Assembly (NCBI GenBank): GCA_015488115.1
Contig: WFOK01000051.1
Location: forward strand, 1 to 48,005
Direction: 5' to 3'
DNA: 48,005 nt
DNA from: Mariprofundaceae bacterium
GTDB lineage: Bacteria; Pseudomonadota; Zetaproteobacteria; Mariprofundales; Mariprofundaceae
The translations under genes and the position numbers were made by a program. Position 1 is the stretch's first letter, and each line of letters starts with the position of its first letter. A model generated the notes under the pieces. The model worked only from the letters and a program-made list of their open reading frames with translations. It was not told where the DNA came from and made no database searches. Positions 13,165 through 18,544 of this stretch are shown piece by piece.

Positions 13165-13251
13165 ATGGTTAGCGTCCTGCCTTGTGTGTATGAAGGGTTT
13201 GAGGCAGGCGGCCAGTCCGATGATTTGAAACCCAAGCTGCAATCGGTATAA
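13165..13251 (+). CDS. Possible 28-residue small protein or leader peptide
   Basis: A short frame encoding a 28-residue peptide beginning MVSVLPCVYEGFEAGG and ending LKPKLQSV. GGGAGG at 13151-13156 lies eight bases before the ATG, which is better placed than the sites of many real genes here. Its last codons and TAA lie within the spacer and -10 box of the promoter that drives the next gene. No family recognised and no hydrophobic segment. The only other support is position: an AT-richer 234-bp gap between cca and the cytochrome cluster. It could equally be chance. Confidence 0.3.
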   Translation: MVSVLPCVYEGFEAGGQSDDLKPKLQSV

Positions 13252-13252
13252 T
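13225..13252 (+). promoter_or_regulatory. Strong sigma-70-like promoter of the cytochrome cluster
   Basis: TTGAAA (13225-13230), a 16-bp spacer and a perfect TATAAT (13247-13252). The predicted start near 13259 gives a leader of about 24 bases ending in AGGGA ahead of the ATG at 13283. It is the best promoter match I found in the window. Confidence 0.7.
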
Positions 13253-13282: not shown

Positions 13283-14023
13283 ATGCCCAAGTACAGACGC
13301 TTCTCCGACGCATCGGTCAGCGAGAAGATCCTCGACTCCATGTTCCTGTTAACCATCGGCCTGGGTTATTTCTTTGCCATTCTGAACCTCTATTACACCC
13401 ATCAGGGGCGGGATGGCGAACCCGGCCTCTCCGTCAAGGACGTGATGATCGCCTATTACGGCAGCCATAACCAGACCCGCCTGGGTGCTGCCATCAATGG
13501 CCCGATGGAGGCGAACCTGCCCAATCCCGCAGCCAAGCACGTGATCCTCGACTGGATCGAACACGGCACCCCAAAAGATGAATTCGAACTGCAAGTCAAG
13601 CCGATTCTGGACAACAATTGCATCATGTGCCATTCGGCCGAAAGCGGCATGAACATCCCGCACCTGACCAGCTATGAGGAAGTGCTGAAGCTTACCGAGA
13701 CCGACACGGGTACTCCGATACCGGCCCTGGTGCGCGTTTCGCACATCCACCTGTTCGGCATCGCCTTCATCCTGTTCCTTGTCGGGCGCATCTTCATCCT
13801 CTGCGAAATGCCCGTCTGGATCAAGCGCGTGACCGTGGCCATTCCATTTCTGTTCCTGCTCATGGACATCAGTTCCTGGTTCATCACCAAGAGCATGCCG
13901 GAGTTCGCCTATGTCGTCGTGGCCAGCGGCGGGCTGATGGGACTCTCGCTATGGGGACAGATCCTTTGCAGCCTGTACCAAATGTGGTTCTACCGTCCCA
14001 AGGCCATTCCGGTCGAGATGTAA
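13283..14023 (+). CDS. Membrane protein with one c-type haem motif (predicted electron carrier)
   Basis: 246 residues. One hydrophobic helix lies near the N-terminus (about 17-38). A soluble stretch follows and ends in KPILDNNCIMCHSAESG, a CxxCH haem-attachment motif at Cys113-His117. Three more helices lie at about 155-175, 181-200 and 207-230. Two histidines spaced HIH (154 and 156) stand at the entry of the second helix and could serve as haem or metal ligands. The haem segment reads like planctomycete-type cytochrome domains (ILDNNC..CH followed by LTSYEEVLKL). This topology places the haem domain between helices one and two, probably in the periplasm. It heads a cluster with two further c-type cytochromes and hemN. 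I do not recognise a named function; a quinol- or partner-linked electron-transfer role is inferred. Confidence 0.75.
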   Translation: MPKYRRFSDASVSEKILDSMFLLTIGLGYFFAILNLYYTHQGRDGEPGLSVKDVMIAYYGSHNQTRLGAAINGPMEANLPNPAAKHVILDWIEHGTPKDEFELQVKPILDNNCIMCHSAESGMNIPHLTSYEEVLKLTETDTGTPIPALVRVSHIHLFGIAFILFLVGRIFILCEMPVWIKRVTVAIPFLFLLMDISSWFITKSMPEFAYVVVASGGLMGLSLWGQILCSLYQMWFYRPKAIPVEM

Positions 14024-14057
14024 GCGTTTCTCCGCCCCGAGGAGAACAAAATGCGCC

Positions 14058-14086
14058 TTGGACAGAGCCACGTGATGGGCTAGGCT
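14058..14086 (+). promoter_or_regulatory. Probable internal promoter ahead of the monohaem cytochrome
   Basis: TTGGAC (14058-14063), a 17-bp spacer and TAGGCT (14081-14086), in the 96-bp gap after the membrane haem protein gene. A start near 14093 would give a short leader with the AAGGAGGG ribosome-binding site. It would allow the small cytochrome to be made in excess over its upstream neighbour. Confidence 0.45.
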
Positions 14087-14119
14087 TGAACTAAAGATTC
14101 CAGTCGGAAGGAGGGTAAC

Positions 14120-14410
14120 ATGAAAAAGTTCGCACTGATTGCAGCAGCCGCATCCCTGATGGTCGCCGGGGCCATGCCAGCTCATGCCGCCGCTGACGGA
14201 GCAAAACTCTTCAGCAAGAAATGCTCGATGTGCCACAGGATCGACACCAAGAAGGTCGGCCCCGCAGTCAAGGACATGAACAAGGATCCCGCCGTGCTCA
14301 AGGAGGTCATCACCAAGGGCCGGAAGATGATGCCGAAGTTCGGCTCGAAGCTCAGCGCAGAGGAAATCGATGCCCTCGTGGCCTTCATTCAGTCCAAGCA
14401 GCCGAAATAA
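14120..14410 (+). CDS. Small periplasmic monohaem cytochrome c (class I)
   Basis: 96 residues with a clean signal peptide (MKKFALIAAAAS..., cleavage near AHA-A) and a mature domain of about 73 residues. The haem motif is CSMCH (Cys35, Cys38, His39), and the Met of the later MMPKFG segment is the expected sixth ligand. KKVGPAVKDM fits the cytochrome c551/c8-like fold. It is preceded by a near-perfect ribosome-binding site (AAGGAGGG). Likely a soluble electron shuttle between the membrane haem protein or the trihaem cytochrome and a terminal oxidase; the partners are inferred from neighbourhood only. Confidence 0.93.
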   Translation: MKKFALIAAAASLMVAGAMPAHAAADGAKLFSKKCSMCHRIDTKKVGPAVKDMNKDPAVLKEVITKGRKMMPKFGSKLSAEEIDALVAFIQSKQPK

Positions 14411-14447
14411 GCGTCAAACGCTTGCGCAAAGAATCCTTGTGGACAAT

Positions 14448-14465
14448 AGTTGGCCTTTGCCAACT
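14448..14465 (+). promoter_or_regulatory. Intercistronic hairpin between the two cytochrome genes
   Basis: A perfect 7-bp stem (AGTTGGC / GCCAACT) with a four-base loop, followed by only a short T run. It lies 38 bases after the monohaem cytochrome stop and just before the ribosome-binding site of the trihaem cytochrome. It could act as a weak terminator or an mRNA-stabilising end that sets the ratio of the two proteins. Confidence 0.5.
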
Positions 14466-14486
14466 TTGTGGAGAGGAGGAGAAATC

Positions 14487-15308
14487 ATGCGCATCATGTT
14501 GTGGGCCGCATTGCTGGCCTTAGTAGCCGCCCCGATGGGCGCATCGGCCAAGGAGCTGAGCGGCAAGGAACTTTTTGAAGCCAATTGTGCCATGTGCCAC
14601 GGCAAGGATGGCACCGTCAGCGATTACGGGAAGAAGCTCAAGCCTTTCCCTGCCCGCAACCTGCGCGCCGTGGCCCCATTCGTTGATCGCGACGAATTGC
14701 GTCGCATCATCACCTATGGCGTCAAGGGCACGGCCATGACACCCAAAAAATACACGCTTGACCCCCTGGAGATCGAGGAAGTCATCGACTACATCAAGAC
14801 CTTTGATTACAAGCCCAACCTGGCCAACGGGAAGAAGCGCTTCGAGGCCGTCTGCTCGACCTGTCACGGCATGGATGGCCGGGCAAAAACCGGCGTGGGC
14901 GCAAAGAATCTCGTATACAGCAAGCTGGACCTGAAGGGCATCATACACACGATTCGCTATGGACGACCAGGCACGCTGATGACCAGCAAGCGCCACCAGC
15001 TCAGCAATGCCGACATCGCCGATGTCGCCCATTATGTCTACTCGCTGCGCTACAAGGCCAGCCCGGAGCGGGGCAAGGCGCTGTACCAGAAAAACTGCGC
15101 ATCTTGCCATGCGACTCCTGGGGATATCCGACTGATCGGCAACGCGGCCCAACGACGCAAGATAAGCGATCTTGATGATCGGTTGCTTGACCTGCGCATC
15201 CGCCACGGGCGTCATGTGGAACGCGCCGGCGAACACATTACCAAGCTCTCCGACGATGATGTCCAGGACATCATCGCCTACATTCGCGCATCAACCGGGA
15301 AACAATGA
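14487..15308 (+). CDS. Periplasmic trihaem cytochrome c (three tandem monohaem domains)
   Basis: 273 residues from the ATG at 14487, chosen because GAGGAGGAG precedes it and a signal peptide follows (MRIMLWAALLALVAA...). The frame is open 39 codons further upstream, but that sequence overlaps the previous gene and has no signal. Three repeats of about 85 residues each carry a CxxCH: CAMCH (34-38), CSTCH (123-127) and CASCH (204-208). The first two repeats keep a Met in GTAMTPKK and GTLMTSKR as sixth ligand. The third has GRHVERAGEHI at that place and no Met, so its haem probably has a different or missing axial ligand. The stop overlaps hemN by ATGA. Predicted function is periplasmic electron transfer. 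Confidence 0.9.
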   Translation: MRIMLWAALLALVAAPMGASAKELSGKELFEANCAMCHGKDGTVSDYGKKLKPFPARNLRAVAPFVDRDELRRIITYGVKGTAMTPKKYTLDPLEIEEVIDYIKTFDYKPNLANGKKRFEAVCSTCHGMDGRAKTGVGAKNLVYSKLDLKGIIHTIRYGRPGTLMTSKRHQLSNADIADVAHYVYSLRYKASPERGKALYQKNCASCHATPGDIRLIGNAAQRRKISDLDDRLLDLRIRHGRHVERAGEHITKLSDDDVQDIIAYIRASTGKQ

Positions 15309-16738
15309 CTGAGCATGCAAGGCAAGGCGCCTCCCGACTGGGGGGCGCCGATCTTTTTCATCTCGACCTGATCAGGAAATACGACAAGGCGGGCCCCAGA
15401 TACACCTCCTACCCAACCGCTCCACTGTTCCACGAGGGCGTAGACGCCGAGGCCTATGCCCGAACGCTTCGGCGCGTGGCCGAGGACCGCGCCCCGCTGT
15501 CGCTGTACGTGCACATTCCCTTCTGCAACACGGTTTGCTATTACTGCGGTTGCAGCAAGATCGTGACCAAGCAATACGAACGCGCAGCTCCATATGTGGA
15601 CCTGCTGTGCCGGGAAATCGATCTCGTCGCCGACACCTTGGGCCATGGGCCAGAGAACCCGGGGCGTACAGTCATGCAGTTGCATTTCGGAGGTGGAACC
15701 CCCACGTTCCTGAACGATGATCAGATGACGCGTCTGATGCACAAGCTCCGGGAACGCTTCTCATTCGCGGATGATGAACAGGGGGAGTTCGGCATAGAAA
15801 TCGATCCTCGCGAGTGCAGCGAGCACACCATTGCGGTGTTGCGGCAGATCGGCTTCAACCGCATGAGCATGGGAGTGCAGGATTTCGATCCCGACGTGCA
15901 GAAGGCCGTCAATCGCATCCAGTCCGAGGAGGTCACGCTGCGCGTGCTCAACGAGGCCCGGGAGCATGGTTTCAAATCCATCAACATCGATCTCATGTAT
16001 GGCCTTCCCCATCAAACCGTCGAATCGTTTGATCGCACGCTGGACACCATCATCGGTTTCTCACCGGATCGCATCGCCCTGTTCAATTATGCACACCTGC
16101 CGCACATGTTCATGCCACAACGCAGGATTGACGAAGGCGATCTCCCTACACCTCAGGAGAAACTCAACATTCTCGAACACAGCATCAATAAACTGCTCGA
16201 TGCGGGATACGTGTTCATCGGCATGGATCACTTCGCCAAACCGGATGATGAGCTGACCCTGGCGCAACAGGAAGGGAAGCTCTACCGCAACTTCCAGGGC
16301 TATTCGACGATGGCAGACTGCGATCTTATCGGCCTGGGCATCACGTCCATCGGCTATGTGGGCGGAGGCTTCTTCCAGAATGCCAAGGAGATGGATCGTT
16401 ATTCAGGCGCCCTTGCTTCCGGCAACTTCCCAGTGTTCAGGGGATATATCCTGTCCAGGGAGGATCATCTGCGCAGACAGGTCATCATGCGACTGATGTG
16501 CGATTTCGCGCTCGATTACCGCACGTTTGAGCATCAATTCGAGATTGATTTCAGACGACACTTTGCCGATGAGCTGAGGGATCTTGAGGACATGGCCGAA
16601 GACGGGCTTGTTGAGCTTTCTGAGCATGGCCTTCGCGTGCTTCCCGCCGGACGCCTGCTGATCAGAAACATCGCCATGGTTTTCGATGAATACCTGCGCA
16701 AGAAGAATGACGGGGTCAAATTCTCCAAGGTGATCTGA
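15305..16738 (+). CDS. hemN: Oxygen-independent coproporphyrinogen III oxidase (radical SAM)
   Basis: 477 residues (E. coli HemN 457). It performs the oxidative decarboxylation of coproporphyrinogen III in haem synthesis without oxygen. The radical-SAM motif is HIPFCNTVCYYCGCSK, with Cys74, Cys78 and Cys81 for the 4Fe-4S cluster and the extra Cys83 typical of HemN. Downstream are FGGGTPTFL, EIDPRE, the MGVQDFD segment and the YGLPHQT segment, plus a C-terminal HemN domain. Presence of these features and full length argue for true HemN rather than the HemW-like chaperone. The start overlaps the trihaem cytochrome stop by four bases, coupling haem supply to cytochrome production and suggesting microaerobic or anaerobic expression. 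Confidence 0.96.
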   Translation: MTEHARQGASRLGGADLFHLDLIRKYDKAGPRYTSYPTAPLFHEGVDAEAYARTLRRVAEDRAPLSLYVHIPFCNTVCYYCGCSKIVTKQYERAAPYVDLLCREIDLVADTLGHGPENPGRTVMQLHFGGGTPTFLNDDQMTRLMHKLRERFSFADDEQGEFGIEIDPRECSEHTIAVLRQIGFNRMSMGVQDFDPDVQKAVNRIQSEEVTLRVLNEAREHGFKSINIDLMYGLPHQTVESFDRTLDTIIGFSPDRIALFNYAHLPHMFMPQRRIDEGDLPTPQEKLNILEHSINKLLDAGYVFIGMDHFAKPDDELTLAQQEGKLYRNFQGYSTMADCDLIGLGITSIGYVGGGFFQNAKEMDRYSGALASGNFPVFRGYILSREDHLRRQVIMRLMCDFALDYRTFEHQFEIDFRRHFADELRDLEDMAEDGLVELSEHGLRVLPAGRLLIRNIAMVFDEYLRKKNDGVKFSKVI

Positions 16739-16801: not shown

Positions 16802-18544
16802 TCAGTAACTCTTGCGGAACTGGGTCGCATGACATTTCGGACATGGCGGAACGCGTCCAGTGCGCTTCAAGTGAATCTCATGACCACAGGAAGTGCAGGT
16901 CAACGTCCCTGCACTCGTGATCTCTCCCGAACGGCATGTACGCACCTGGTCGGCCTTCTCCGCCACATTCGCAAACAATTCGCCGGCAGCCCGAAACAGC
17001 GAGGCCAACGAGGCCACCGCACCGGCACCCAGCCGGGAGGGATGTAGTTTTTCCATGGCTTCCTCGCTGAAACTGGCAGCCATGTGACCGAAATCGCGCT
17101 CCAGGAAGGCCTTCAGCCGTTTTCCCTGCTCTTCGGAGAATGCACCGGCAGCCGTCAACTGTTCGCGCGCCTTTTCCATCGCTACCCTTGCAAATTCGGC
17201 AGTCTTCTCCGAGCCGGCCTCGAACAGCTCGGTGAAGCGTTCCACGAGCTGATCATACTGAATGGCCTCGACATCCTCCTCTGCCTCTTCTCCCATATGG
17301 GCGATGATGGCATCGCCAAACTGAGAGGTGGACAGCTTCGTCGCGCCTTCCATCAGGCGATGAAAGTCATACGTCACGGTCTTGGCCCGAATGGCGCCCG
17401 TGACACCCTGAATGATCAGATCCGCGGCCTCCGTCCAGCCCATGTAGCGAAGCATCATTTCGCCGGAAAGAATGACGGATGAGGGGTTGACGACATTCTT
17501 GTTCGCATATTTGGGAGCCGTGCCATGCGTGGCCTCGAAGATCGCATGACCGGTGTCATAATTGATGTTGGCGCCAGGAGCAATGCCGATGCCACCAACC
17601 TGAGCAGCCAGCGCATCGGACAGGTAATCGCCATTCAGGTTCAACGTGGCAATCACATCGAATTCCTTGGCGCGGGTCAGTACCTGCTGCAGAGCGATGT
17701 CGGCTATTGCATCCTTGATCACAAGTCCGTTGGGCAACTGACACCATGGACCGCCGTCGATCTCCTGGGCGCCAAACTCCCTCTTCGCAAGCTCATAACC
17801 CCAATTTCGGAAGGCACCCTCGGTGTACTTCATGATGTTACCCTTGTGCACCAGGGTCACGCTTTTCCGGTTGTTCTCGATCGCATAGCGAATGGCAGCG
17901 CGGACCAGACGTTCGGTACCCTCCCTTGAAACAGGCTTGATGCCGAAGCCGCTGGTCTCGGGAAACCGAATCTTGGTCACGCCCATTTCATTCCGCAGAA
18001 AATCCAGAAGCTTCCTGGCCTCATCGGAGCCTGCGGGCCATTCAATGCCGGCATAGATGTCCTCCGAGTTCTCGCGGAAGATGACCATGTCCACATCCTC
18101 AGGCCGCTTGACGGGGCTGGGCACGCCATCGAAATACTTAACCGGTCTCTGGCATACATACAGGTCCAGCTTCTGGCGCAACGCGACATTCAGCGAGCTG
18201 ATTCCTCCGCCAACAGGCGTGGTCAGCGGCCCCTTGATGCCAATGAGATATTCGGAAAACGCATCGAGGGTTTCCTGCGGCAGCCATGCCTCGTCCGTCT
18301 GACCATACATGTTCCATGCCTTTTCGCCGGCAAACACTTCCATCCAGGCGATCTTGCGCTGTCCTCCGTAAGCCTTCTCGACTGCGGCATCAAGCACGCG
18401 CTTGGCCGCGCGCCAGATGTCCGGGCCCGTTCCATCCCCTTCAATGAAGGCGATGATCGGCCTGTCCGGCACATGAAGCCGTCCATCCTCCCCCATGGTG
18501 ATCTTTTCCCCATCCTCGGGAATGCGAATCTTGTCGTATGCCAT
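16802..18544 (-). CDS. icd: NADP-type isocitrate dehydrogenase fused to a DUF1451-like zinc-ribbon domain
   Basis: 580 residues. Residues 1 to about 417 are a complete bacterial isocitrate dehydrogenase. They include [11 protein letters not shown], the phosphorylatable-serine loop [34 protein letters not shown], the [14 protein letters not shown] metal-ligand segment and the cofactor loop [11 protein letters not shown]. The family normally stops near residue 416. Here it runs without a break into about 160 more residues: a helical stretch, then [19 protein letters not shown] and CPKCHATQF (Cys550, Cys553, Cys568, Cys571). That is the layout of a whole stand-alone zinc-ribbon protein of the YbeL/DUF1451 type. 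Oxidative decarboxylation to 2-oxoglutarate is expected; the role of the extra domain is unknown. ATG 18544 has AAGGGG ten bases upstream. Confidence 0.93.

Follow-up and report, generated by a model that had tools for sequence, protein, structure and literature searches.

What might a small inner-membrane protein with a single CxxCH motif do at the head of a cluster of soluble cytochrome genes, and why might such a cluster end with a gene for haem synthesis? These questions are raised by a stretch of 48,005 nucleotides from a member of the Mariprofundaceae (contig WFOK01000051.1, here called the window), in which four consecutive genes on the same strand (13283-16738) encode a 246-residue membrane protein (M246), a monohaem cytochrome (cyt1), a trihaem cytochrome (cyt3), and an oxygen-independent coproporphyrinogen III oxidase (hemN). 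The genome is zetaproteobacterial, its closest named relative being the metagenome-assembled genome J030 (97% identity across M246). An earlier sequence-only reading had postulated an electron-transfer cluster built around an undescribed membrane haem protein, with haem production co-regulated for low oxygen.

The haem domain of M246

The haem domain of M246 shares with the PSCyt1 (PF07635) and Haem_bd (PF14376) families the elements V-x-PIL ... CxxCH ... SYE, a Met, and a WI-x-x-GA helix. In those families, the Met and the WI helix lie after CxxCH, whereas in M246 the halves stand in the opposite order: Met75 and an ILxWIxxG(A) helix come first, followed by a VxPIL helix and CxxCH. Met75 and W91 precede C113, and the Met loop and WI helix are not found after the motif; the N-terminal helix that PSCyt1 and class I cytochrome c require before CxxCH is present. 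M246 also differs in that its domain is inserted between membrane helices, and it gives no match to PSCyt1 and stays below the curated gathering score of Haem_bd (best scores of 13.8-18.2 bits versus a cut-off of 27). To our knowledge, no natural circular permutation has been described in c-type cytochromes, and text searches of the literature found none either.

When profiles were compared half by half, the half bearing CxxCH (B) scored 51.4 (probability 97.3) against the N-terminal half of PSCyt1 but only 7.7 against its C-terminal half, and the preceding half (A, residues 40-95) scored 19.5 against the C-terminal half versus 10.9 against the N-terminal half. Thus, the first half of the domain matches the second half of PSCyt1 and the second half the first, as expected of a permuted cytochrome c, and the other two pairings are at noise. 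In 80 column-shuffled controls for A against the C-terminal half, the mean was 9.4 (standard deviation 2.2) and none of the 80 reached 19.5. The true cytochrome C-helices of cyt3 scored 18-21 against the same C-terminal half, and the membrane blocks of M246 scored no more than 10.9. Modelled alone, the domain folds with a pLDDT of 87.7 and its helices in rotated order. With hydrazine synthase in the PDB, the two M246 segments gave a low-scoring alignment in which their order is swapped, an order-independent hint; a Foldseek comparison of the domain model with the PDB, which requires sequence order, gave no match. These results suggest that the haem domain is a circularly permuted PSCyt1-type cytochrome c, which we regard as probable but not proven.

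It could instead be argued that the cluster is an ordinary one, composed of routine periplasmic cytochromes, hemN, and an unremarkable membrane cytochrome in which residues 40-95 are a family-specific extension and nothing has been permuted. Tests in which the order was restored were negative, and these count against a permutation: as one chain, the un-permuted domain scored no higher than the native one in HMMER or hhalign, a Pfam search gave no difference between the native and un-permuted domain, and the un-permuted profile gained only slightly against single-domain PDB cytochromes, with c6/c552 alone. A relationship of the un-permuted profile to the cyt1 and cyt3 domains was also tried and rejected, the scores not rising above those of shuffled controls. 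Furthermore, cyt1 and two of the cyt3 domains are themselves ordinary class I cytochromes. Nevertheless, residues 40-95 match the C-terminal half of PSCyt1 specifically, on a par with genuine cytochrome C-helices. In addition, the confidently modelled domain has no order-preserving counterpart among PDB cytochromes, although one would be expected for an ordinary cytochrome c. We think an ordinary cluster of this kind fairly unlikely.

Topology and invariant residues

The sequence-only reading had described an unusual topology for M246 (one helix, a periplasmic CxxCH domain, and then three helices) with an HIH pair at the membrane edge. The AlphaFold model agrees, placing helices at residues 12-39, 146-171, 178-204, and 206-235 and the CxxCH domain after the first of these; the predicted layout is thus a first transmembrane helix (TM1), a periplasmic c-haem domain, and TM2-4. 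H154 and H156 lie within the second helix and are invariant in alignments of both 59 and 23 sequences. Across the 23 diverse members of the latter, the invariant residues include D44, G45, Y58, M75, W91, C113, C116, H117, H154, H156, K181, D195, and W199.

Together with D195 and W199, the HIH pair forms a candidate second cofactor or quinone site, judging from its conservation. Another possibility is that the site binds a metal such as copper or iron and that M246 is an oxidase-like or metal-handling protein. The invariance of H154, H156, and D195 would fit such a function, as would one methanotroph copy (L045), which has open reading frames (ORFs) resembling pmoA and pmoB by eye about 6 kb upstream. 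However, no metal-handling genes recur beside M246, and a metal site of this kind seems very improbable.

Distribution of M246 and conservation of its cluster

M246 has no match above cut-off in Pfam or NCBIfam and no relative among PDB chains in a single-sequence search, and comparison of its AlphaFold model with PDB folds returned only helical matches without meaning (E > 1). The sequence-only view of M246 as an undescribed membrane haem protein is supported. No publication on this cluster was found, although it may be mentioned in Field 2015, Barco 2015, or Barco 2024. Novelty is restricted to three things: the protein family, the domain order, and a hairpin within hemN (see below).

In whole-genome searches of 39 good zetaproteobacterial genomes, 34 carried M246 (one of them through a doubtful 21-bit match); outside the class the protein is rare, with only 2 of 321 sampled genomes from the rest of the phylum having it. 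Many Methylococcales (methanotrophs) have it, as do 11 of 120 genomes of one further order; plasmid records contain none. A tree separates the M246 group from a paralogous clade with a support of 0.99, and this clade has members in Mariprofundus, in Ghiorsea-like genomes, and in the same further order.

For the neighbourhood, 44 zetaproteobacterial loci were fetched and compared by tblastn, and 36 of these had enough downstream sequence for counting. M246 is adjoined by cyt1 in 33 of the 36 and accompanied by cyt3 in 30, while hemN belongs to the cluster in 25 and is missing from 11; all three are present in 22. These counts indicate a core of M246, cyt1, and cyt3, with hemN as a looser member. 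Neither finding that would have spoken against the sequence-only reading was obtained: the neighbourhood is conserved in the class, and the M246 family has no assigned unrelated function.

The cluster lies behind a sigma-70-like promoter that is, as had been claimed, the strongest in the window, being the best -35/-10 match on either strand. In nine other zetaproteobacterial loci, a promoter match of at least 10/12 with an identical 16-nt spacer starts 54-57 nt before M246; these include L001, although other genes lie directly upstream there. The repetition of both position and spacer is more than would be expected by chance.

Coordinates of the features of the M246 locus in the window
Feature	Position	Strand	Basis
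M246, 246-aa inner-membrane protein	13283..14023	+	ORF; no Pfam, NCBIfam, or PDB relative; AlphaFold pLDDT 82.7
Probable permuted haem domain, M246 residues 40-148	13400..13726	+	Half-by-half profile comparison with controls; domain model
CIMCH haem-attachment motif, residues 113-117	13619..13633	+	C113, C116, and H117 invariant in both alignments
HIH pair, residues 154-156, near periplasmic end of TM2	13742..13750	+	Invariant in both alignments
cyt1, 96-aa monohaem cytochrome	14120..14410	+	Pfam Cytochrome_CBB3, 66 bits
cyt3, 273-aa trihaem cytochrome	14487..15308	+	Pfam Cytochrome_CBB3, 128 bits, 3 stretches
hemN, oxygen-independent coproporphyrinogen III oxidase	15305..16738	+	TIGR00538, 623.6 bits
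Sigma-70-like promoter, TTGAAA-N16-TATAAT	13225..13252	+	11/12 match
Intrinsic-terminator-like hairpin in hemN, codons 8 onward	15326..15359	+	Terminator scan, conservation, covariation

Beyond the cluster, on the opposite strand, positions 16802-18544 hold a 580-aa isocitrate dehydrogenase-like ORF with a zinc-ribbon-like tail at its end.

The soluble cytochromes

Counting CxxCH motifs gives one in M246, one in cyt1, and three in cyt3, the five haem sites first noticed. cyt1 consists of a signal peptide and a single class I c-type haem domain (KCSMCH ... GRKMMPKF), with a distal Met conserved in 40 homologues. For cyt3, the longest ORF would start at 14370, which falls inside the cyt1 gene; the true start is thus 14487, from which the protein has a normal signal peptide. 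In an alignment of 35 cyt3 homologues, domains 1 and 2 retain the Met ligand, and in domain 3 (residues about 225-250), the axial Met loop is replaced by the near-invariant LDLRIRHGRHVxRAGK. This third domain may be bis-His or five-coordinate, or may serve as a docking face.

A hairpin within hemN

The hemN product scores far above the equivalog cut-off of TIGR00538 (324.95), and its gene overlaps cyt3 by ATGA (15305-15308), as previously read. The top match of a terminator scan (15326-15349) lies inside hemN, 21 nt past the start codon. It has the form of an intrinsic terminator, with a 10-bp stem, a 4-nt loop, and then a T-rich tail, GATCTTTTTC, and its pairing is conserved. The hairpin is kept in 19 of the 24 loci in which cyt3 precedes hemN, whereas the 4 hemN loci that lack cyt3 do not have it; another genome (L190), with hemN but no adjacent cyt3, has a version with one mismatch. 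Loci with the hairpin include L001, L016, L032, L036, and L189. Its pattern matches once per genome, at the start of hemN in most genomes with a match. A search of Rfam over the region gave no match.

The same sequence also specifies the peptide GASxLGGADLF, and it could be supposed that the hairpin is conserved solely through this peptide, which is itself mostly conserved. Such an explanation is hard to reconcile with L016, where the stem is retained though the peptide is altered, or with L189, where A-U takes the place of the central U-G pair. Double changes are seen in 3 of the 10 stem pairs, a number higher than in 496 of 500 shuffles; the hairpin is 98% paired, compared with 45-64% for slid structures. 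Moreover, synonymous codon identity is 87% within the hairpin versus 53% in the rest of hemN, and most hemN copies without an upstream cyt3 have no hairpin. We consequently find conservation through the peptide alone quite improbable.

Given the compensatory changes and the reduced synonymous variation, hemN is probably attenuated relative to the cytochrome genes. Translation initiated at the ATGA overlap would bring a ribosome onto the stem and open it, so that in the simplest model, transcripts would stop after cyt3 unless hemN is translated. The hairpin thus suggests that hemN is uncoupled from the cytochrome genes and not simply co-expressed with them. The proposed co-regulation of haem production for low oxygen is not supported: hemN is absent from nearly a third of the loci counted, it carries the hairpin at its start, and no FNR-like site (up to 2 mismatches) recurs upstream of M246, most of the zetaproteobacterial upstream regions scanned having none at all.

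Genomic contexts of M246

In L001 (5079-7907) and L030 (5107-7920), a complete second bc-type complex lies directly upstream of M246, between cca and M246, and consists of a Rieske protein, a cytochrome b fused to a c domain, and a dihaem c. A second bc complex beside M246 was also looked for in the window's own genome and rejected, the sole full-length cytochrome b match being at C55. Elsewhere, petABC adjoins M246 with cyt3 in between (L023), a heptahaem/molybdopterin/NrfD complex follows M246 (L015), or it comes after genes for a porin-like protein and two c-type cytochromes (L143). In Ghiorsea-like genomes, the paralogue lies within [NiFe]-hydrogenase clusters (L115:8711-9460 and L119:8924-9673), flanked by HybE-like and other hydrogenase maturation genes.

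In five methanotroph loci (L058, L061, L062, L067, and L078), a Cyc2-like fused cytochrome-porin is encoded 100-320 bp upstream of the M246 homologue. Cyc2 has been defined by AXPXFAR[QK][TY] upstream of CXXCH and PXL downstream (PMC8406198); by this motif assignment, L061, L062, and L078 qualify, as does L058 but for an S in place of A, and L067 fails. The window's own genome encodes a cytochrome-porin with the Cyc2 motif elsewhere. Strict co-occurrence of M246 and Cyc2 was rejected: of the 16 genomes from outside the class that have M246 and were tested, only 9 gave a match to Cyc2. The porins beside methanotroph M246 are, in their own right, a hint of extracellular electron exchange in Methylococcales. 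As a separate observation, two members of another order encode small secreted proteins beside M246 that resemble each other and are about 160 aa long (L140:802-1296 and L143:8718-9188), that of L143 being weakly like PF10634 (Fe2+ transport periplasmic protein).

With bc complexes, molybdopterin/NrfD proteins, Cyc2-like porins, and hydrogenases as neighbours, electron transfer is the best reading for M246, and what these contexts have in common is electron transport and not specifically the oxidation of iron. The conserved neighbourhood, the redox neighbours, and the lack of a known family agree with the electron-transfer cluster first proposed. A different view would make M246 an assembly, haem-delivery, or redox-sensing protein for nearby metalloenzymes and not an electron conduit. 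The paralogue between hydrogenase maturation genes, the presence of hemN in the cluster, and the often solitary M246 of methanotrophs would all be explained in this way. However, M246 has an invariant CxxCH and Met, apparently for a covalently bound c-haem, and its recurrent neighbours are redox complexes and soluble cytochromes, with no further assembly genes among them. On balance, such a service function appears unlikely.

Proposed role

The account that we somewhat favour is that M246 works together with cyt1 and cyt3 as a conserved module for electron transfer in iron-oxidising Zetaproteobacteria, with a permuted haem domain, an HIH/Asp195 site, and a terminator in hemN. In this model, M246 would be an inner-membrane cytochrome whose periplasmic haem is liganded by His117 and probably Met75, the permuted PSCyt1-like domain being fixed by TM1 on one side and a bundle of three helices on the other. 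At the periplasmic edge of the membrane, the invariant HIH/Asp195 site would handle a quinone or a second cofactor and exchange electrons with the soluble carriers cyt1 and cyt3, the direction being left to inference. These two would in turn connect M246 or a bc complex with the periplasmic pool fed by Cyc2 and with a terminal oxidase. Given its place last in the operon, behind a terminator within coding sequence, hemN would be left out of most transcripts, which would finish after the cytochromes, and haem synthesis would be raised only while the hemN start is undergoing translation. It should be noted that this account sits less easily with two results: the membrane half of M246 resembles no solved protein in the PDB fold comparison, and many methanotroph copies stand alone among unrelated genes with no redox neighbour.

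The proposed role, from quinone to periplasmic cytochrome, resembles that of the NapC/NrfH/CymA quinol dehydrogenases and cytochrome bc1; however, no sequence relation to these was found, and M246 differs in having a single c-haem and four TM helices. The Cyc2-pathway carriers of Zetaproteobacteria (Cyc1 and the PCs; PMC7029218) and the ircABCD proteins of Sideroxydans (PMC12442390) are likewise small periplasmic c-type cytochromes in iron oxidisers that have Cyc2, in some cases with an inner-membrane partner. In contrast to irc, which comprises a dihaem and a monohaem cytochrome, a hypothetical protein, and a b-type cytochrome, the M246 cluster has a monohaem and a trihaem cytochrome and a c-type membrane protein with a probable permuted domain. 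The hemN hairpin is similar to trp-type and translation-coupled attenuators in that translation could decide whether an intrinsic terminator forms, but it lies inside the coding sequence of the downstream gene itself.

A bolder hypothesis, which we consider doubtful, is that M246 represents a new type of small redox protein in the membrane, in which a permuted cytochrome c set between TM helices would provide a minimal exchange between quinone and cytochrome c in iron oxidation, with paralogues serving beside hydrogenases and methanotroph Cyc2-like porins and the supply of haem controlled by the hemN terminator.

Significance

The part of the pathway that leads from Cyc2 to the inner membrane is modular and incompletely known (PMC7029218, PMC12442390, PMC6443915), with an acknowledged gap at the carriers that link the outer-membrane iron oxidase Cyc2 to the inner membrane (PMC7029218, PMC12442390). 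M246 and its two linked soluble cytochromes are a concrete, testable, and class-wide candidate to fill it, and the methanotroph relatives of M246 fall in genera with cultured strains. If the proposed regulation is true, a conserved terminator placed within a coding sequence would let the cell meter its haem synthesis against the production of cytochromes.

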